Shown: positions 1,918 through 34,997 of the stretch, in pieces
How the letters are laid out: every line of letters begins with the position of its first letter
How positions within the stretch are numbered: the stretch's first letter is position 1
From: Cognatazoarcus halotolerans
GTDB taxonomy: Bacteria; Pseudomonadota; Gammaproteobacteria; Burkholderiales; Rhodocyclaceae
Assembly: GCF_009800965.1 (NCBI RefSeq)
Contig: NZ_WUAF01000002.1
Coordinates: 108,299 to 172,298 of the forward strand
Reading direction: 5' to 3'
DNA length: 64,000 nt
Made by a program: the position numbers and the translations under genes
The notes under the pieces: generated by a model
Databases searched by the model: none
What the model was told of the DNA's origin: nothing
What the model saw: only the letters and a program-made list of their open reading frames with translations

Positions 1918-2772
1918 TCAGTGGCCGCTGGCCTTGGGGCAGAGCAGGTCGCCACCTGATGCCTCCGTTTGTGTTTCCGTTGCCGCTCCCCTTGCGGGGG
2001 CTGCAGCGGATTGTGTCTGCCTGAAAGTCTCAAGCAGGCGCAATTCCTGTTTGCCCAGCGCCCGACCCGTCAGCAGGTCCGGCCGCCGGGCCTCGGTCCG
2101 CCCCAGCGACTGCTGCAGGCGCCAGCGCCGGATTTCGGCGTGGTTGCCCGAGAGCAGAACCGGGGGAACCGGCATGTCCCGATACACCTCCGGCCGGGTG
2201 TAGTGGGGGCAGTCGAGGAGCCCGTCGACGAAGGAATCCTCCACCGCCGAGTCGGCATCGCCCAGAGCCCCCGGCAACTGCCGGACAATCGCGTCGAGCA
2301 GCACCATGGCCGGTAATTCGCCTCCCGACAGCACGAAATCGCCGAGAGATATTTCTTCATCCACGCAGCGGTCGATAAGCCGCTGGTCGATGCCTTCATA
2401 ACGTCCGCAAAGCAACACCAGCGACGGCTCCGCCACCAGTTCCATCACCTTGCCGTGATCCAGCCTGCGCCCCTGGGGCGAGAGGTAGATCACCCTTCCT
2501 GCCGGCACGCCGGCCTGTAACTGCGCGGTCTTCGCCGCCTGAATCGCCATTTCCAGCGGTTCGACCAGCATCACCATGCCGGGGCCGCCCCCGTAGGGCC
2601 GGTCATCCACGGTGCGGTGCCGGTCAGTGGCAAAGTCCCGCGGATTCCAGCAGTCGAGCCGGTAGAGATCCCTTTCGAGGGCGCGCCGCGTGATACCGCT
2701 GCCGGTCAACGCCCCGAACATCTCCGGAAAGAGGGTGATGATGTCGTAGCGCCGTCTGCCGGTCGCCGTCAC
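1918..2772 (-). CDS. trmD: tRNA (guanine-N1)-methyltransferase TrmD
   Basis: TrmD methylates G37 of tRNAs carrying G36, preventing +1 frameshifting; it is a trefoil-knot SAM enzyme acting as a dimer. Visible are '[11 protein letters not shown]' at the N-terminus, the knot region '[16 protein letters not shown]' and '[12 protein letters not shown]'. I place the start at the GTG at 2772 because it overlaps the rimM stop as GTGA and has an AAAAGGA ribosome-binding site just upstream. An in-frame ATG 15 bp upstream (2787) is the alternative but lacks a good site. The C-terminus carries a low-complexity Ala/Thr-rich extension. Confidence 0.95.
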
Positions 2773-3275
2773 CAGTCCTTTTCCCATTCCACGTGAATCA
2801 CACCCGCGGGTACATCCACTTCCTTGATGAAGGCTTCGACGAAAGGAATCAACCTTTCCTCCTCGCCCTCCTGGACCTGCAGCACTGCATGCGCGCCGGT
2901 TTCCATGAGACCGGCAACCGTGCCGAGCGCTTCGCCAGCCAGATTGCGTACTGCAAGGCCGGTCAGATCAGCCCAGTAATACTCATCCTTGCCGGTGGCA
3001 GGCAGTGCTTCGCGCGGTGCACCGACGTACATCTGTTCCACGGCTTCCGCCGCATTCCTGTCGGGCAACTCGTCAAATGCTGCGACGAGCGAGCGACCCT
3101 GCGCCCTGCATGCCTTGAGGCGATATGCCTTCCATTCGGTTTCCGGCGCATCGGCATCGGCGCATAGCCACCAGTGCGACATCTTGCGCCACGACAGCGG
3201 ATCGTCGCCGAAGGGGTGGATTTTCACCCAGCCCTGAATGCCGAAAGGGGCGACGATGCGCCCCAGTACTATCAT
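2769..3275 (-). CDS. rimM: Ribosome maturation factor RimM
   Basis: RimM, 168 residues, binds ribosomal protein S19 and assists 30S head maturation. The N-terminal RimM domain begins '[19 protein letters not shown]' and the C-terminal PRC-barrel half contains '[12 protein letters not shown]' and ends '[13 protein letters not shown]...'. It lies between rpsP (26 bp upstream) and trmD (4-bp overlap), the standard bacterial order, supporting one transcript. Confidence 0.96.
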
Positions 3276-3301
3276 CTCGGCCCGGACGGAATCTGTCTGC
3301 T

Positions 3302-3550
3302 TCAGGCGGCCTTGGCGGCGCCTTTGACGAGACGGGCTACGGTCGGCGACAGCTGCGCGCCGTTCTGCTGCCAGTGGGCAAGACGCTCGGCGTTGATGGT
3401 GAGCGGAATTTCTTTGCCGGACGCCATCGGGTTGTAGAAACCGACGCGCTCGATGAAGCGGCCGTCACGACGATTGCGAGAATCGGCGGCGACGATGTTG
3501 AAGAACGGGCGCTTCTTGGCGCCGCTGCGGGCAAGGCGAATGACAACCAT
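3302..3550 (-). CDS. rpsP: 30S ribosomal protein S16
   Basis: Ribosomal protein bS16, 82 residues, beginning '[20 protein letters not shown]', the family signature. The frame remains open upstream, but homology and length fix the start at the ATG at 3550. It is the first gene of the rpsP-rimM-trmD-rplS operon. A candidate promoter lies at 3587-3615. Confidence 0.97.
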
Positions 3551-3586
3551 CGTGTAGTCCTGATCCGGGTTTTCGGAAAACGAGCA

Positions 3587-3615
3587 AGGATACGGGAAAA
3601 CATGCCGGAGAACAA
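3587..3615 (-). promoter_or_regulatory. Candidate sigma-70 promoter of rpsP operon
   Basis: On the minus strand TTGTTC is followed after 17 bases by TATCCT, about 37 bp upstream of the rpsP start. The spacing is ideal, the match to consensus moderate. Confidence 0.35.
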
Positions 3616-3739
3616 GCCACCCCATAGCGGTGGATACAGATGTCCGACCGGTCAGGGGGATTCGATCGCGGGCTGTTGCCGGCACCTCCGACAATATAGA
3701 ATGCGCGGGACCGAATAAACGGAAAGCGTGTGTCCGCGG

Positions 3740-5209
3740 ATGTCTCTCTCGTCAAAGCCTGATAACGATTCGCTCGGCTCCGTCGGGGGGAATGCCGGCG
3801 AGGCCGCAGCCTCCGACGGGCTGGCCAGCGAGCTCCAGCAGCTCCGACAGCGTATCGATCTTTTGCCGGGCTCGCGGGCCGCAGGGGACGATCTCAAGGT
3901 GCTCGCCGATGATCTTTCCGGCGAATCGGACCGGGTGGTATCGCAACTCGTCGGCGTTGCACTGCCTCTTCCGCACGATCTGCATGCCCTGCAGCAGATC
4001 GCCGTCGAGACCCTGGTGGCGACTGCCAGGGCCTGTAGCGGGGCGACGCGGGAAGGACGATCCGGTTTCCTTTCCGGTTTCCGGCGTGACGATGAGGTGG
4101 TTGCCCGCGGGCTTGCCTTGTTGGTCGAGGCCTACGAGATCTGTTGTCTGGCGGGTTGTTCGCCTCCTTACGGCTTCTGGCTGCTGGCACATGGTCTGTT
4201 TCATTCGGCTTGTCCGTCGGGCGTCTCGGCCGGTGAGCCGGAGCGTCACAATAGTGCGGTGGCCTCGTACAAGCGCCTGTTGGCCATCAATACGTTGCAG
4301 CCCGAGGGCTTTACTTCCACGGAACTCCAACAGGCATACGCGCTGCTGGACGAGATGGCATGTATGGCCACGGTTGGCGTCGCGGCCGGCGAAGCGGCAC
4401 AGTCGAATTTCTGGATCGACTATGCACAGGACACGCCGCCGGTTCCGATCGTGCGTCGCGAGCCGCCGCCGGTGGACGGGTTGGGTTTTTTCTCGGCGGT
4501 GCCGCTGGGACACCATCTCACCACCTTGCTCGATTCGCTCGGCGAACAAGAGCCGGATGAGAACGCAAACGCGTGGGATGTTGGAGTCGATGCCGTGCGC
4601 CTTTCGCTTTATCGGCGACTGCGCGAACGATGGGCGATGCCGCCCAGGCGTGAACAGGCCCGGCGGAGGAGCGAGTACTCGGTTCAGGTGTGCATTGGGC
4701 TGAATCCGATCTGGCGACGGCTGTCGGATCCCGCGTCGGCCGGCCGCCTTGCCGAATGGACGGTCCAGAACGAGAGCCCCGGGGGATATGCGATCATGCG
4801 CCTTTCGGGCGTGGCCGATACGCTGACCTCGGGGATGCCGATCGCCCTACGAAAGAACACAGATCAACCCTGGTCGATCTGCGTAGTCCGTTGGGTGCGC
4901 AGCGAGACGCCCGATCAGCTGGAGCTTGGGCTGCAGCTGGTTTCGCTGGCCGGCATCCCGGTGCGTATCGCGTTCAGGACCGGGGCGTCGGCTGCAGGGC
5001 CGGTGCGTGCGCTGGTGCTGCCGCCGCTCGAGGCGGTCCGGCGCCATCAGGCGATCCTTGCGCCTTTGGGAACCTATACTTCGAGGCGCTTCGTACTGCT
5101 GCACGAAGGTGCCCGTCTTTACGTGGCGCAGGGAAGACTGCTGAGCCTCGACATGCAAACCACGAGTGTCGAGCTGTTCCAGTTCGAGGTTGATCCCTAC
5201 CCGATCTGA
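3740..5209 (+). CDS. PilZ-like domain protein of unknown role
   Basis: Protein of about 489 residues that I cannot assign to a characterised family. The N-terminal two thirds is mostly helical with no signal peptide or membrane segment. The C-terminal part resembles a PilZ c-di-GMP-binding domain: an Arg-rich stretch '[12 protein letters not shown]' precedes a strand, and 'NESPGG' near residue 344 fits the PilZ [D/N]xSxxG motif. It continues with beta-strand-like segments ('ICVVRWVRS', 'LELGLQLVS'). An alternative GTG start lies at 3728, with GGAAA upstream. It is divergent from rpsP and its 3' end overlaps the convergent yihY-family gene by 13 bp. The function is inferred only from the motif. 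Confidence 0.6.
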
Positions 5210-6441
5210 TTGCCCGTCGATGCGGTGTCGAGCAGGCGGTCAAGCGAGTCGGCGAGCGGGTCGTCGGCCAGTTGCTCGATGCGCTCCGCGAGGGCAGGAC
5301 CAAGCTGCCCGCCGCGCGAGCGCAGGCCCTTCGGTGAAACGCTAAGGGCCTGCAACACCTGCCCCAGTCGAACGTTCTCGCAGCGGATGGTCAGGACCCA
5401 GCCGAGTCGATCGGTGTTGGCGACCCAGCCTGCGAGGTTCAGGTCCTCCAGGCGTGCCTCGGTATCCGCGAGCGAGAGGCCGGTGTCGTTCGCGATCTGT
5501 CCGGTTTCCGGCGTTTCTCCGCGTTGCTGGGCGACGCGCAGTCGCGCCATGACCTGCAGACTGTCCAGCAGCGCGTCGCCCGGAAAGCGGTCGCGGTTCG
5601 ACATGTTGAACGCAGCATCGGGCAGCACGGCGACAATCGCGGCACCGATCAGGACGATCAGCCAGGAAAGATAAAGCCATAGCAGGAAAATGGGGAGTGC
5701 CGCGAAGGTGCCGTATATCAGCGTGTAGGCGGTGAAGTGTCCGATGTAGGCGCCGAACAGGCGCTGCATGCCGGCCAGTGCCACGGCGCTGAACACGCCG
5801 CCCATGATTGCATGAGCGACCCTGACCGGTCGGTTCGGAAGGCCGTGGTACATGAGGCTGAAGACGGCAGCGAGCAGCAACAGCGTCATGACGCGCAGCG
5901 AGGCAGCGTGCAGCCACTGCGCCTCGCTGATCAACCCGAGTGAAAAGCTCAACAGCTGAGAGCTGGCGAAGATGCCCGCGGCCAGCGCGAGCGGGCCGAG
6001 GGTCAGGCCGACCCAGTAGATCGTGAGTCTCGAGAGCAGAGGGCGCGGATGGGCGACGGCCCAGATCTGATTGAACGCCTTGTCGATGGTGAGCATCAGC
6101 ATCAACGCGGTGACGACCACCAGCAGCGTGCCGATGAGGGTAAGGTTGGCCGCCTTCTGCGAGAACTGGAATGCGTAGGTGGCGATGATCTGACCGGCCT
6201 TTTCCGGCAGCAGCGTGTCGAGCATGAAGCTGCGCAGGGCGTCGCTGATGCCCTGCACCCCGGGCATGTGCCCGAAGATCACCAAGCCCACGGTAAGCAG
6301 GGGAACCAGCGAGAGCAGGGTGGTGAAGGCCAGACTGCTTGCCACCTGGGGGCAGCGTGCCGCCACCATGCGGTCGCGAAGCAGGCGCGCGAAGCCGAGC
6401 AGCTGCTGCAGTGGGGCGTCCGGAGGGGGGGCGGGAATCAT
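5197..6441 (-). CDS. YihY/BrkB family inner-membrane protein
   Basis: 414-residue polytopic protein of the YihY/virulence factor BrkB (UPF0761) family. The conserved N-terminal stretch 'VASSLAFTTLLSLVPLLTVG' and several further hydrophobic segments to about residue 290 are visible. A cytosolic C-terminal region (about 300-414) resembles a winged-helix extension seen in proteobacterial members. The biochemical role of the family is not settled. The 3' end overlaps the convergent PilZ-like gene by 13 bp. The gene is divergent from wrbA, with only 56 bp between the two starts. Confidence 0.88.
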   Translation of the reverse strand: MIPAPPPDAPLQQLLGFARLLRDRMVAARCPQVASSLAFTTLLSLVPLLTVGLVIFGHMPGVQGISDALRSFMLDTLLPEKAGQIIATYAFQFSQKAANLTLIGTLLVVVTALMLMLTIDKAFNQIWAVAHPRPLLSRLTIYWVGLTLGPLALAAGIFASSQLLSFSLGLISEAQWLHAASLRVMTLLLLAAVFSLMYHGLPNRPVRVAHAIMGGVFSAVALAGMQRLFGAYIGHFTAYTLIYGTFAALPIFLLWLYLSWLIVLIGAAIVAVLPDAAFNMSNRDRFPGDALLDSLQVMARLRVAQQRGETPETGQIANDTGLSLADTEARLEDLNLAGWVANTDRLGWVLTIRCENVRLGQVLQALSVSPKGLRSRGGQLGPALAERIEQLADDPLADSLDRLLDTASTGNQIG

Positions 6442-6482: not shown

Positions 6483-7447
<965 letters not shown>

Positions 7448-31001: not shown

Positions 31002-31457
31002 ATGACCGAAACTCCCCCTACAAGCAGGCTGATCGTTGAACTGGCCGGCCTGCGCCGCCGTCTTGCCTCGCTGCTTTACGAATCGCTGCTGCTGCTCGGC
31101 GTGCTTGGACTGACCTTCATGGTGCCGATGCTGATCATCGGCGTGGTGTGGCAGATATCGGTGCCCGGCTGGATCGAGTGGATCCACATCTTCGTGGTCC
31201 TTGGTGCCTATTTCATGTGGTACTGGCGTCGTGGCGGTCAGACGCTGGCAATGCAGACCTGGCGGCTGAAGCTGGTGGACGTGAGCTCCGGCGTGGAAAT
31301 GTCGCTTCGCCAGGCCGCGCTGCGTTACGTGCTGGCGTGGCCCTCGGTGCTGACCGGCATCGGTCTTCTGTGGGCACTCGTCGATTCCGATCGCCAGTTT
31401 CTCCACGATCGTCTGAGCGGCAGCCGTATCGTCCTGATGCCACCCGTGAAGAACTGA
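31002..31457 (+). CDS. RDD family membrane protein
   Basis: 151-residue inner-membrane protein with the RDD domain: 'RRRLASLLYESLLLLGVLGL' (here R..YE in place of R..DD), then a second segment, and 'RRGGQTLAMQTWRLKLVD' before a third. RDD proteins are of unknown or transport-like function. It starts 30 bp after the DUF3106 gene; an upstream TTG at 30978 is possible. Its stop is 17 bp before the promoter of the ABC importer operon. Confidence 0.85.
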   Translation: MTETPPTSRLIVELAGLRRRLASLLYESLLLLGVLGLTFMVPMLIIGVVWQISVPGWIEWIHIFVVLGAYFMWYWRRGGQTLAMQTWRLKLVDVSSGVEMSLRQAALRYVLAWPSVLTGIGLLWALVDSDRQFLHDRLSGSRIVLMPPVKN

Positions 31458-31474
31458 CCTTTCGTCCTCCGGGC

Positions 31475-31503
31475 TTGTTTGCTGCGGTGCACCCCGATAT
31501 AGT
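31475..31503 (+). promoter_or_regulatory. Promoter of the ABC importer operon
   Basis: TTGTTT (31475-31480), a 17-base spacer and TATAGT (31498-31503) form a good sigma-70 match. The predicted transcript would start near 31510, leaving a leader of about 113 bases before the start codon at 31623. Confidence 0.5.
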
Positions 31504-31509
31504 CCGCCC

Positions 31510-31622
31510 GGCAGTCTGAGTACTGCTTTGGTCTTATCCGGCGCTCGCACTCGTGCGACGCCATCGTAAGCCGCGGCGGGTTCTGCTTCCACGCCGGGGC
31601 GGTTTTCGTGGGGAGCCTTCCG
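31510..31622 (+). promoter_or_regulatory. Structured 5' leader, candidate riboregulator
   Basis: The leader holds a 5-bp stem (31511-31515 with 31522-31526), a long GC stem interrupted by one bulged C (31540-31550 with 31553-31562), and a third 5-bp pairing (31574-31578 with 31592-31596). GGGGAG before the start codon at 31623 would be the ribosome-binding site. It matches no riboswitch class I can recall. Whether it is regulatory is an inference from the stems only. Confidence 0.35.
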
Positions 31623-32495
31623 ATGATTCTTTCAGCTCATCGTCGCGCGTTGCTGCGCGGCATTCTTGCCGGCATTGCCGGCACCTGCATGATCTCGCAC
31701 GCGTCGGCCGAGACGGTGCTGCGGGTTTCCGCGATTCCGGACGAGTCGCCGACCGAGCTTCAGCGCAAGTTCGCCCCGCTTGGAACCTACCTGCAGGCCG
31801 AGACCGGGATGCCGGTGAAGTTCGTGCCGGTCACCGATTACGCCGCGGTGGTCGAAGCGCTCGCCAACGGCAAGGTCGACCTCGCCTGGCTGGGCGGCTT
31901 CACCTTCGTTCAGGCGAAGATCCGTACCGGCGGTACTGCGATTCCGTTGGTCCAGCGCAGCGAGGACGCAAGCTTCACCTCGAAGTTCATCACCGCCAGC
32001 GACAAGATCAAGACGCTTGCCGATCTCAAGGGCAAGACTTTTGCCTTCGGTTCGCCGTCGTCGACCTCCGGTCACCTGATGCCGCGCCATTTCCTGGCCG
32101 AAGCCGGGGTCGATGCGGACAAGGATTTCAAGTCTCTTGCGTTTTCCGGCGCGCATGACGCGACTGTTGCGTTCGTGCAGGCCGGCAAGGTCGAGGCCGG
32201 CGCGCTCAACGCCTCGGTGTGGGACAAGCTGGTCGAGCAGAAGAAGGTCGATACCACCAAGGTGCACGTCTTCTACACCACGCCTTCGTACTACGACTAC
32301 AACTGGACGGTGCGCGGTGATCTCGACCCGGTGCTGATCGGCAAGCTGCGCGATGCCTTCCTCAAGCTCGACCCGGCAAACCCCGCGCACAAGGAAATCA
32401 TGGCCCTGCAGCGCGCCAGCAAGTTCATTCCGACCAAGGCAGAGAACTACGCGGGTATCGAAAGTGCCGCGCGTTCGGCCGGTCTGGTCCGCTAA
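31623..32495 (+). CDS. Phosphonate/putative selenate ABC transporter substrate-binding protein
   Basis: Periplasmic binding protein of 290 residues in the PhnD-like (type 2) family, with an N-terminal signal peptide ending in 'MISHASA'. 'LRVSAIPDESPTELQRKFAP' followed by 'VPVTDYAAVVEALANGKVDL' and 'GSPSSTSGHLMPRHFLAEAG' are typical of the subgroup annotated as putative selenate-binding proteins, as I remember it. Phosphonate or another oxyanion is the alternative. It heads a four-gene importer operon. The start at 31623 fits GGGGAG at 31609-31614; a GTG at 31608 is upstream. Confidence 0.82.
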   Translation: MILSAHRRALLRGILAGIAGTCMISHASAETVLRVSAIPDESPTELQRKFAPLGTYLQAETGMPVKFVPVTDYAAVVEALANGKVDLAWLGGFTFVQAKIRTGGTAIPLVQRSEDASFTSKFITASDKIKTLADLKGKTFAFGSPSSTSGHLMPRHFLAEAGVDADKDFKSLAFSGAHDATVAFVQAGKVEAGALNASVWDKLVEQKKVDTTKVHVFYTTPSYYDYNWTVRGDLDPVLIGKLRDAFLKLDPANPAHKEIMALQRASKFIPTKAENYAGIESAARSAGLVR

Positions 32496-32555: not shown

Positions 32556-33374
32556 ATGAGTTTCAATCTCGCAGGCGTCAGTGTGGTGCACCGCAATGGC
32601 GCGGTTGCGCTCGAAGACATCAGCCTCCGTGCCGGCCGCGGTGAGCGGATTGCCCTGATCGGGCCGTCCGGTGCCGGCAAGACGACCCTCCTGCGCCTGC
32701 TGGCGGCCAGCCTCAAGCCGACCCGCGGGCAGCTCGAGTTGCTCGATACCCCCGCATGGTCGATCGACGCGCGGGCCCTGCGCAGCTTGCGCGCGCGCAT
32801 CGGCATGGTCCACCAGAGTTCGGCGATCCCGCCGCGCCAGCGTGTCGTCACCGCGGTACTCGCCGGGCGGCTGGGGCGATGGCCGCGCTGGAAGGGGCTG
32901 GTGTCCTGGCTCTATCCGCTCGATCCGGCAGGCGCGCAGCGCGAGCTCGCGCGGCTCGATCTCGGCGAGCGGCTCTTCGATCGCTGCGACAGCCTCTCCG
33001 GTGGTCAGCTGCAACGGGTTGCGCTGGCGCGGGTGCTTTACCAGCAGCCGGAGCTGATCCTTGCCGACGAGCCGGTTTCGGCGCTCGATCCGACGCTCGC
33101 CGAGCTGATCACCCGGCTGCTCAACGAGGAGGCGACACGCCGCGGCGTGGGTCTCGTGGCGAGCCTGCACGCTGTCGACCTGGCCCTGCGATATTTTCCG
33201 CGGGTGGTGGGCGTGCGGGCGGGGCGCATCGCCTTCGATTGCGCCGCCGGGCAGGTCAGCGAAGCGATGCTTGCCGGGCTGTACGGACCTGTGCCCGGGG
33301 CTGCCGGAGAGAACCCCGAGGCCGATCGATCGGCCACGCCGGTTGGCACTGCGGTGCCGCTGATGTGCCGATGA
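32556..33374 (+). CDS. ABC transporter ATPase, PhnC type
   Basis: ATP-binding subunit of 272 residues. Walker A '[16 protein letters not shown]', Q-loop in '[10 protein letters not shown]', signature '[20 protein letters not shown]' and Walker B '[13 protein letters not shown]' are all intact. It follows the binding protein by 60 bp and overlaps the first permease in ATGA (33371-33374). It most resembles PhnC. The C-terminal tail after about residue 230 is low-complexity. Confidence 0.9.
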
Positions 33375-34195
33375 GCGTTCGCTCGCTGCGCGACCCGGCG
33401 GCGCTCGGCCGCCTCGGCTGGAGCATTGTTGCGCTGGTCTGTCTGTGGCCGCTGCTGGTCATCGCGCAATTCCGGCCTGGTGCATTGTTCGAGGCCGGCA
33501 ATCTCGATGCGATGGGGCATTTCCTGGCCGGCTTCTGGCCCCCCGAGGTGTCCGGTTTCTTCCTTCAGCTGCTGTGGACCGCAACGCTCGAGACCCTGGC
33601 GATGGCGACCGCCGGCATCGCGCTTGCCTTGCTGCTGGCGGTTCCGCTGTCGTTGGCGGTGACCCGTAGCCTGTCGGCCGCCTCGCTCGCTGGCGGGCGA
33701 CACAGCCTCGTGGTTTCGGCTGTCCGGGCCATGTTGCGCCTGTTGCTGGTGGTGCTTCGCGGGGTGCCCGAGCTGGTCTGGGCGCTGGTCTTCGTGCGTG
33801 TCTTCGGCCTCGGACCGGCAGCCGGCGTGCTCGCCCTGGGGATCACCTATGGCGGGATGCTGGCCAAGGTCTTCTCCGAAATCCTGGAATCCGGCGACCT
33901 GCGTCCGGCGCGTGCGCTGATGGAGGCGGGGAGCGGGCGCACCGGGGCGCTGCTCTATGGGCTCTTGCCCGGGGTGAGCCAGGAGCTGGTTTCCTACACG
34001 GTCTATCGTTGGGAATGCGCGGTGCGCGCTTCCGTGGTGATGGGCTTCGTCGGGGCTGGCGGACTCGGCCAGCTCATGGATCAGTCGATGAAGATGCTCA
34101 ACGGTGGCGAGGCCGCGACCATCCTGGCCACTTTCCTGGTGCTGGTGCTGGGTGCGGACGCGCTTTCCGCCTGGCTGCGCCGGCGGCTCGCCTGA
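33371..34195 (+). CDS. ABC transporter permease 1, PhnE type
   Basis: 274-residue inner-membrane permease with about six segments. The C-terminal '[20 protein letters not shown]' followed by '[18 protein letters not shown]' is the EAA-loop-like end of PhnE-type permeases. It overlaps the ATPase gene by 4 bp and is followed one base later by a second, diverged permease, so the two probably form a heterodimer. Confidence 0.88.
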
Positions 34196-34196
34196 G

Positions 34197-34997
34197 ATGC
34201 GTGGCATGGACAGTATCCCGCGACCACGACCCTGCCTCACATGCGTGCTCGGTGCGCTGGCCTGCTTCGCGGCGGTGTGGGCGAGCTTCGCGTGGCTCGA
34301 TCTTCCCTTCGGTGAACTGTTCGCCGCTTCCGCGCTGACGGACATGGGGCGCTTCGTTGGCGCCTTTTTCCCGCCCGACCTGTCGCCCGCCTTCCTCGCC
34401 AAGGTCGCGAGCGGAACCCTCGAGACACTGGCGATCTCGGCGATCGGGACGGTGCTGGCGGTGGTTGCAGCGGTGTTCCTGGCCTTGCCGGCCGCCGGAC
34501 GCTTCGGTCTGCCGGCGCGCGCGGGTGCGCGCCTGGTGCTCAATTTCCTGCGCTCCGTGCCCGAACTGGTGTGGGCCACACTGATGGTGCTGCTGGCCGG
34601 GCTGGGGCCCTTTGCCGGTGTGCTGGCGCTGGCGCTGCACACCGCGGGCGTGCTTGGCCGGCTGTTTGCCGAGGCGCTCGAGAACAGCCCGGCGGAGCCC
34701 GAAGCGGCGCTGCGCGAGCTTGGCGCTGGCCCGGTGTCCGCGTTCTGCTATGGCGTCATGCCGCTGGTCGGCGCACAGTGGCTGGCCTATGCGCTGTACC
34801 GCTGGGAGATGAACATCCGCATGGCCGCCATCCTCGGCTTCGTCGGCGCCGGCGGGCTGGGCACGATTCTGTATTACGAGCTGTCCCTCTTCCACGAGGC
34901 CCGGGCCAGCACGGTGATCATCGCCATGCTGGGCCTGTCGGTGCTGGTCGATACGGTCAGCGCGCTGTTCCGGCGCGGCCGCCTCGCCGCGCAGTGA
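34197..34997 (+). CDS. ABC transporter permease 2, PhnE type
   Basis: 266-residue permease, a diverged paralogue of the previous one. It shares the pattern 'RSVPELVWATLMVLLAGLGP' and 'YALYRWEMNIRMAAILGFVG' then 'AGGLGTILYYELSLF'. It ends the ABC importer operon. The 9-residue stretch 'MRGMDSIPR' gives two close ATG starts (34197, 34206). Confidence 0.88.
   Translation: MRGMDSIPRPRPCLTCVLGALACFAAVWASFAWLDLPFGELFAASALTDMGRFVGAFFPPDLSPAFLAKVASGTLETLAISAIGTVLAVVAAVFLALPAAGRFGLPARAGARLVLNFLRSVPELVWATLMVLLAGLGPFAGVLALALHTAGVLGRLFAEALENSPAEPEAALRELGAGPVSAFCYGVMPLVGAQWLAYALYRWEMNIRMAAILGFVGAGGLGTILYYELSLFHEARASTVIIAMLGLSVLVDTVSALFRRGRLAAQ

Follow-up and report, generated by a model that had tools for sequence, protein, structure and literature searches.

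The leader ahead of a putative selenate importer in Cognatazoarcus halotolerans is interpreted here, with moderate confidence, as a cis-acting regulatory RNA of a new translational class, probably a riboswitch, that belongs to a selenium (possibly selenium/sulfur) regulon; binding of a ligand has not been shown. The RNA is shared by a set of genes with links to selenium in Rhodocyclales and in a small number of Comamonadaceae. Three properties expected of a riboswitch are met, namely a conserved, structured 5' leader with covariation, a plausible expression platform in the form of complementarity between a hairpin loop and the Shine–Dalgarno sequence (SD), which is computed rather than measured, and downstream genes of one theme, selenium or selenium/sulfur. 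Among the points against this reading are downstream genes of sulfur type, encoding proteins that resemble flavocytochrome-c sulfide dehydrogenase (FCSD), TlpA, TusA and, at one weak site, EgtB; since there are several of them, a sulfur ligand is not excluded.

Architecture and conservation of the leader

The window (the whole stretch of DNA analysed, 64,000 nucleotides of contig NZ_WUAF01000002.1) carries the leader on its forward strand, from the predicted promoter at 31475 to the ATG at 31623. The promoter (31475–31503) consists of a −35 box, TTGTTT (31475–31480), a 17-base spacer and a −10 box, TATAGT (31498–31503). An earlier note on this DNA had called it good, which holds for the −10 box but not for the −35 box, which has only three of six matches; a consensus scan does not list the promoter. 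A TATAAT-like hexamer lies 6–9 bases 5' of the first hairpin, P1, in 33 of the 38 importer loci among the exact-pattern matches described below. This conserved −10 box supports a predicted, unmeasured transcription start near 31510 and not the start near 31600 that would have spoken against a structured leader. No such box precedes the RNA at any of 20 FCSD loci or 10 TlpA loci, and the RNA copies 3' of selA are probably part of a longer transcript. This speaks for an element that acts as RNA and against a DNA operator.

P1 occupies 31511–31526, with the arms GCAGU (31511–31515) and ACUGC (31522–31526) closing a CUGAGU loop. It is followed by P2 (31540–31562), which is strong in the fold, and by a conserved UAA (31567–31569) directly 5' of the hairpin P3 (31570–31600). 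In P3, positions 31570–31578 pair with 31592–31600, with one mismatch in the window copy, and the loop (31579–31591) contains an anti-SD segment, GCUUCC, at 31585–31590. A GGYU(G) element follows P3 (31601–31605, GGUUU in the window copy) and precedes the SD, GGGGAG (31610–31615) plus a C (31610–31616 in all), of which 31611–31616 can pair with 31585–31590 in a pseudoknot. Among 39 parsed leaders, 35 have UAA and four CAA before P3, and 38 have GGYU and one GGAU after it; the AA of UAA was used in the parsing, and GG[CTA]T was used to locate the element after P3. All three stems of the earlier description are present, but only P1 and P3 are conserved, as P2 varies in size and sequence or is absent in relatives and is not clear in the leaders L008, L021 and L023.

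Two further structures were considered and rejected on inspection. P3 is followed by several U's, as in a transcription terminator, in L004, L021 and L023, and these are absent in most leaders; a hairpin between the SD and a GGUUUUC stretch appears in the fold of the window copy and is not evident in L020.

A search with the binding protein encoded downstream, performed on 150 genomes of the same family, yielded 30 orthologous importer loci (at least 64% identity, own locus included), of which 20 carry a leader that agrees with it in its parts and their arrangement, namely P1, a variable segment, UAA, the 9-bp P3, GGYUG, the SD and the start codon. No recognisable leader was found at the other ten, which include those beside selD. 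A plain DNA similarity search for relatives gave merely two non-self matches, of 29–33 bases inside other sequence, and was discarded.

Leaders were picked by the sequence of P1 and the GGYU end and not by the pairing of P3, so that covariation in P3 constitutes an independent test. Unguided RNAalifold on an alignment of 19 leaders returned P1 and P3, with 14 pairs, ten of which show double-sided changes. In the count made against shuffles, 96.2% of cells are paired and the covariation score of 0.406 compares with 0.205 in shuffled alignments, none of 500 of which reached it, and sliding the register by 1–3 bases lowered it to 0.155 or less. In a 38-sequence alignment, 19 rows of which were chosen by a covariance model (R1), the score was 0.448 versus 0.199 (0/500). 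All nine P3 pairs show double-sided changes in both the 19 and the 38 sequences, and P1 is nearly invariant, its five pairs being formed in 100% of cells with covariation (GC/AU) at one pair only. L018 was omitted from both alignments (its linker is about 100 bases long), as was L082 from the second (variant P1 and a misplaced model match). The leader is thus confirmed, by comparison of sequences, to be real and conserved; the lack of covariation or conservation that would have refuted it did not occur, and the earlier proposal of a new regulatory RNA is supported.

The folding energy alone is unremarkable, both for the leader stretch (z = −1.81, with 9 of 200 shuffles equally stable) and for 31506–31625 (z = −0.92, 33 of 200), which leaves the case for structure beyond chance to covariation. 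A chance structure in GC-rich DNA, for which these two z-scores are the only argument, is already contradicted by the covariation, as well as by the conservation and the pattern-scan matches, and can practically be dismissed.

Genes downstream of the RNA and their link to selenium

The ATG at 31623 opens the gene for a substrate-binding protein of the TIGR04553 putative selenate ABC transporter family (31623–32495; 392.6 bits, cut-off 250); its reading frame is also open from a GTG at 31608, and the ATG was chosen as the start. On the same strand follow a PhnC-like ABC transporter ATP-binding protein (32556–33374; TIGR02315, 212.1 bits, below the cut-off of 266.1; start inferred) and two PhnE-like permeases, the first (33371–34195; TIGR01097, 191 bits, below the cut-off of 216.7) with an inferred start, as the tail of the open reading frame 32756–34195, and the second (34197–34997; 228.8 bits, above that cut-off) with an uncertain start within the frame 34104–34997. 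These matches agree with the importer for an uncertain oxyanion that the earlier note had placed here. The operon resembles the phosphonate/phosphite importers PhnCDE and PtxB in its PhnC/PhnE-like components and in the solved structures closest to its binding protein by sequence (7s6g and 5o2j, both phosphonate/phosphite-type), but the binding protein passes the TIGR04553 cut-off and not that of PhnD. Selenium is the probable substrate, although TIGR04553 owes the word selenate in its name to a hypothesis of the database and no binding data exist.

The RNA extends well beyond this operon. The model R1 matches at least 37 of 150 genomes of the family and at least two of 369 of the class, one of which is the own genome, and a second model (R2), built from 38 sequences, matches at least eight of 399 genomes of the order and at least four of 250 in the family of genome G415; 10–27 candidates were scored per genome, which makes these genome counts lower bounds. 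An exact-pattern scan of an 84,980-species collection gave 79 loci, which partly overlap the sites from the genome searches (e.g. L143 and L071), so that totals were not summed. Of these, 74 are genuine and belong to Rhodocyclales, Comamonadaceae and less precisely named metagenome-assembled genomes (MAGs); the remaining five, from other groups and with only 1, 1, 3, 3 and 6 of the nine P3 pairs, were taken as chance.

Clustering of neighbouring genes was swamped by antisense open reading frames, and loci were read individually instead, with seven classes of downstream gene assigned by regular expressions, tblastn and reading. The next gene at the 74 genuine sites encodes a selenate-type binding protein in 38 cases, an FCSD-like flavoprotein in 20, a TlpA-like protein in ten and a second binding protein in three, with single cases of a TusA-like protein, an acyl-CoA dehydrogenase and the Fe-S protein of a molybdenum oxidoreductase. 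An EgtB gene lies 3' of one weaker model match (L081, 44.2 bits); SenA of selenoneine synthesis was considered for it and rejected, as EgtB fits (578.2 bits, cut-off 360) and the SenA score of 384.8 stays below its cut-off of 420.

A true riboswitch that recognizes a sulfur species, a compound of molybdenum or some other metabolite would account for the sulfur-type FCSD-like, TlpA-like, TusA-like and EgtB genes, and for the molybdenum oxidoreductase found 3' of the RNA in L093 and within the operon in L129. The repeated linkage of the RNA to selA, selB and fdh, and to the putative selenate importer, makes such a ligand improbable. Binding of the RNA by an unknown protein instead of a metabolite is likewise unlikely; in its favour, leaders that bind proteins also typically have two small hairpins whose loops are conserved, and the distribution is narrow; against it, no single gene adjoins every site among the families mapped, and the RNA serves distant loci within one genome (G189) and lies on two contigs of another (G106).

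The selenium link that favours a selenium regulon comes from the loci read closely, where the RNA is frequently placed between selA and an FCSD-like or TlpA-like gene, in a cluster of the order fdh–fdhE–selA–RNA–gene–selB. One representative each of SelA (588.7 bits), SelB (478.5 bits), FdhE and Fdh-beta scored over its cut-off, and the L076 cluster includes a tRNA-Sec gene. At least 24 of the 79 pattern loci (at least 29 of 99 loci overall) have selA upstream and at least 15 (at least 19 of 99) have selB downstream, these being lower bounds as the loci are of limited extent. Among the 94 loci for which reading frames were called, 22 have the end of SelA within −33 to +9 of P1, 12–33 bases 5' of P1 in 21 of them and overlapping its first nine bases in one, which places the RNA between genes at these loci. 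A second importer, in the Thauera locus L107, is itself 3' of selA. The selD gene lies about 4.7 kb from the importer gene in G012, which has the RNA, and adjoins it in G023 and G139, both of which lack the RNA. Both selD and selU are over cut-off in all 40 RNA-bearing genomes tested, and lie side by side in the own genome; this fits a selenium role without proving it, because most RNA-free relatives also have both (selD in 28 of 31, selU in 27 of 31).

The frequent position of the RNA between selA and selB raises the question of whether SelB, with selenocysteyl-tRNA, reads the leader as a SECIS-like element, all the more as P1 contains GGUCUG in most leaders, which we take to be reminiscent of SECIS loops. 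Yet selB is over cut-off in just 19 of the 40 RNA-bearing genomes (and in 8 of 31 RNA-free ones; G004, whose SelB-like match is partial and sits at the edge of a contig, was counted as lacking it), and neither selB over cut-off nor selA was found in the own genome. Moreover, a search of 17 genomes with the RNA, of which 15 had been chosen for the absence of selB, found selA in two, and five SECIS regions of formate dehydrogenase (FDH) genes from these loci are, by eye, unlike P1, whose GGU is paired. SelB is thus not the general reader, since the RNA is also carried by genomes that lack selA or selB, and SelB/SECIS was rejected as a general mechanism on the strength of the selB-less genomes and the dissimilar local SECIS regions; what remains of this explanation is very unlikely.

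Several loci merit separate description. The earlier note had considered the RNA only ahead of the importer, and at selenium loci the RNA also precedes genes of several further families. In L143 (Azoarcus indigens) the order is selA, RNA, FCSD-like gene, TlpA-like gene, Rv1679-like acyl-CoA dehydrogenase and Rv1680-like binding protein, with a possible TusA-like gene after the latter (by eye); this cluster may be relevant to the mycobacterial Rv1679/Rv1680 pair, whose role is unknown. Molybdenum oxidoreductases of the DMSO/selenate family, weak to all NCBIfam cut-offs, lie between the binding protein and ABC genes in L129 (a Dechloromonas MAG, approximately 2200–5430) and, with an Fe-S protein, directly 3' of the RNA (6802–6878) in L093 (a Zoogloea MAG). 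In L167 and L068 the RNA is, on inspection, flanked by DsrE-like and TusA-like genes, and two short DsrE-like pieces in this context have no NCBIfam match. A good RNA copy in L067 (G127:C1:2889613-2889705) precedes a reading frame that stops after eight codons and is possibly a decayed gene. The binding-protein genes beside selD (G023:C1:2732785-2734764 and G139:C18:37883-39828) lie in 759-codon reading frames that are possibly selD fusions. Finally, a c-di-GMP-I riboswitch (64.1 bits; L037:1281-1366, minus) lies on the opposite strand 5' of the G172 leader.

Predicted Shine–Dalgarno pairing and the proposed mechanism

The C-rich segment of the P3 loop (UCCG, CUCC or CCCG) is complementary to the SD of its own gene (CGGA, GGAG or CGGG, respectively), a pairing that had not been seen at first reading. 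The window duplex of GCUUCC (31585–31590) with GGGAGC (31611–31616) has a computed energy of −11.8 kcal/mol, and in all 39 parsed leaders (L068 omitted) the duplex reaches −4.8 kcal/mol or better. The mean energy over these leaders is −7.86, versus −6.61 for swapped partners (0/5000) and −5.83 for shuffled loops (0/300). Across 95 distinct leaders, the longest loop–SD helix averages 5.11 bp, versus 4.60 for swapped partners (0/200); the longest helix of the loop overlaps the SD in 81 of them and is only 3 bp long in five. Eight of the 79 pattern loci were left out of this latter test, five as random and L093, L109 and L158 for a misparsed P3 or start. The complementarity is partly generic, as helices of 4.6 bp form even between swapped partners, and the leaders compared are related to one another. 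The evidence that a P3 loop–SD pseudoknot may hide the SD is accordingly good but not conclusive, because swapping ignores relatedness; as predicted, the pairing suggests control of translation.

The mechanism proposed for a riboswitch builds on this predicted pairing. By pairing with the SD of its own gene, the P3 loop could mask the ribosome-binding site. The P1 loop (of the CUGNGU type), UAA and GGYUG are natural candidates for a binding site, being conserved and unpaired, and would together form a pocket for a small selenium-related ligand, an inference for which no binding data exist. When selenium is sufficient, ligand binding would stabilize the loop–SD pseudoknot, and translation would then stop for the importers and for the redox proteins of the periplasm that serve in selenium acquisition. 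The ligand, the direction of control and the effect on expression are all inferred and have not been shown. A passive structure without any sensing role, which merely adjusts translation or the processing of the mRNA, would be compatible with the position of the RNA between genes in operons and with its overlap with the SD; the conservation of the unpaired P1 loop, UAA and GGYUG, and the reuse of the RNA before unrelated gene families, leave it hardly any credibility.

Relation to known systems and significance

The RNA appears to be absent from Rfam 15. A search of the window against Rfam 15 gave no family at threshold, the best hit to 31400–31700 was mir-505 with an E-value of 8.5, and no family reached threshold at 22 distinct related sites (24 loci), all of which is in line with the earlier remark that the leader fits no known riboswitch. 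One sub-threshold match, at the G180 site (L039:1508-1641, minus, identical to L065), is to the Pseudomonas small RNA P15, with 26.6 bits where the gathering score is 70; it lies on the motif strand and involves mainly the GC-rich P3 hairpin plus upstream sequence, and since it occurs at one site only it was judged to be chance. The open PubMed Central literature yielded no selenium riboswitch and nothing recognizable as this motif, and the main text of PMC11109978 contains no mention of "selen-", phosphonate, sulfide or three genera searched for.

The leader is rated as a new class within a known kind, the leader RNAs that control translation. The preQ1-I and SAM-II riboswitches are compact, stand before transport or metabolism genes and pair a hairpin loop with the SD in a pseudoknot. 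The leader shares this compactness, the predicted loop–SD pairing and the position ahead of transport and metabolism genes, but its core is different, no Rfam family reaches threshold, and its ligand has not been shown. In E. coli selAB, a SECIS-like element has been described ahead of selA. The leader is, like this element and SECIS in general, a hairpin RNA at selenium genes; in contrast to SECIS, its host genomes need not contain selA or selB, and it stands before start codons and not after UGA, and does not resemble the local FDH SECIS. LysR_Se and HrsM, which have been proposed to regulate selenium genes and may sense selenophosphate, are protein transcription factors (PMC5322559), whereas the element studied here is a leader RNA.

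A more far-reaching interpretation, which must remain tentative and falls somewhat short of an even chance, is that the RNA represents the first riboswitch class that senses selenium species, with selenophosphate, selenide and selenite as candidate ligands. In betaproteobacteria it would then act without the selenocysteine machinery, switching the translation both of a dedicated importer with high affinity for selenium and of enzymes that acquire selenium in the periplasm. According to a 2022 review, no high-affinity selenium transport system had been identified (PMC9312934). Both the sensing of selenium by bacteria and the identity of such an importer become testable through the leader RNA, which marks a regulon that in turn points to the importer and to uncharacterized selenium redox proteins. 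Binding of a selenium metabolite by this leader, if it occurs, would demonstrate that an RNA can discriminate selenium from sulfur.
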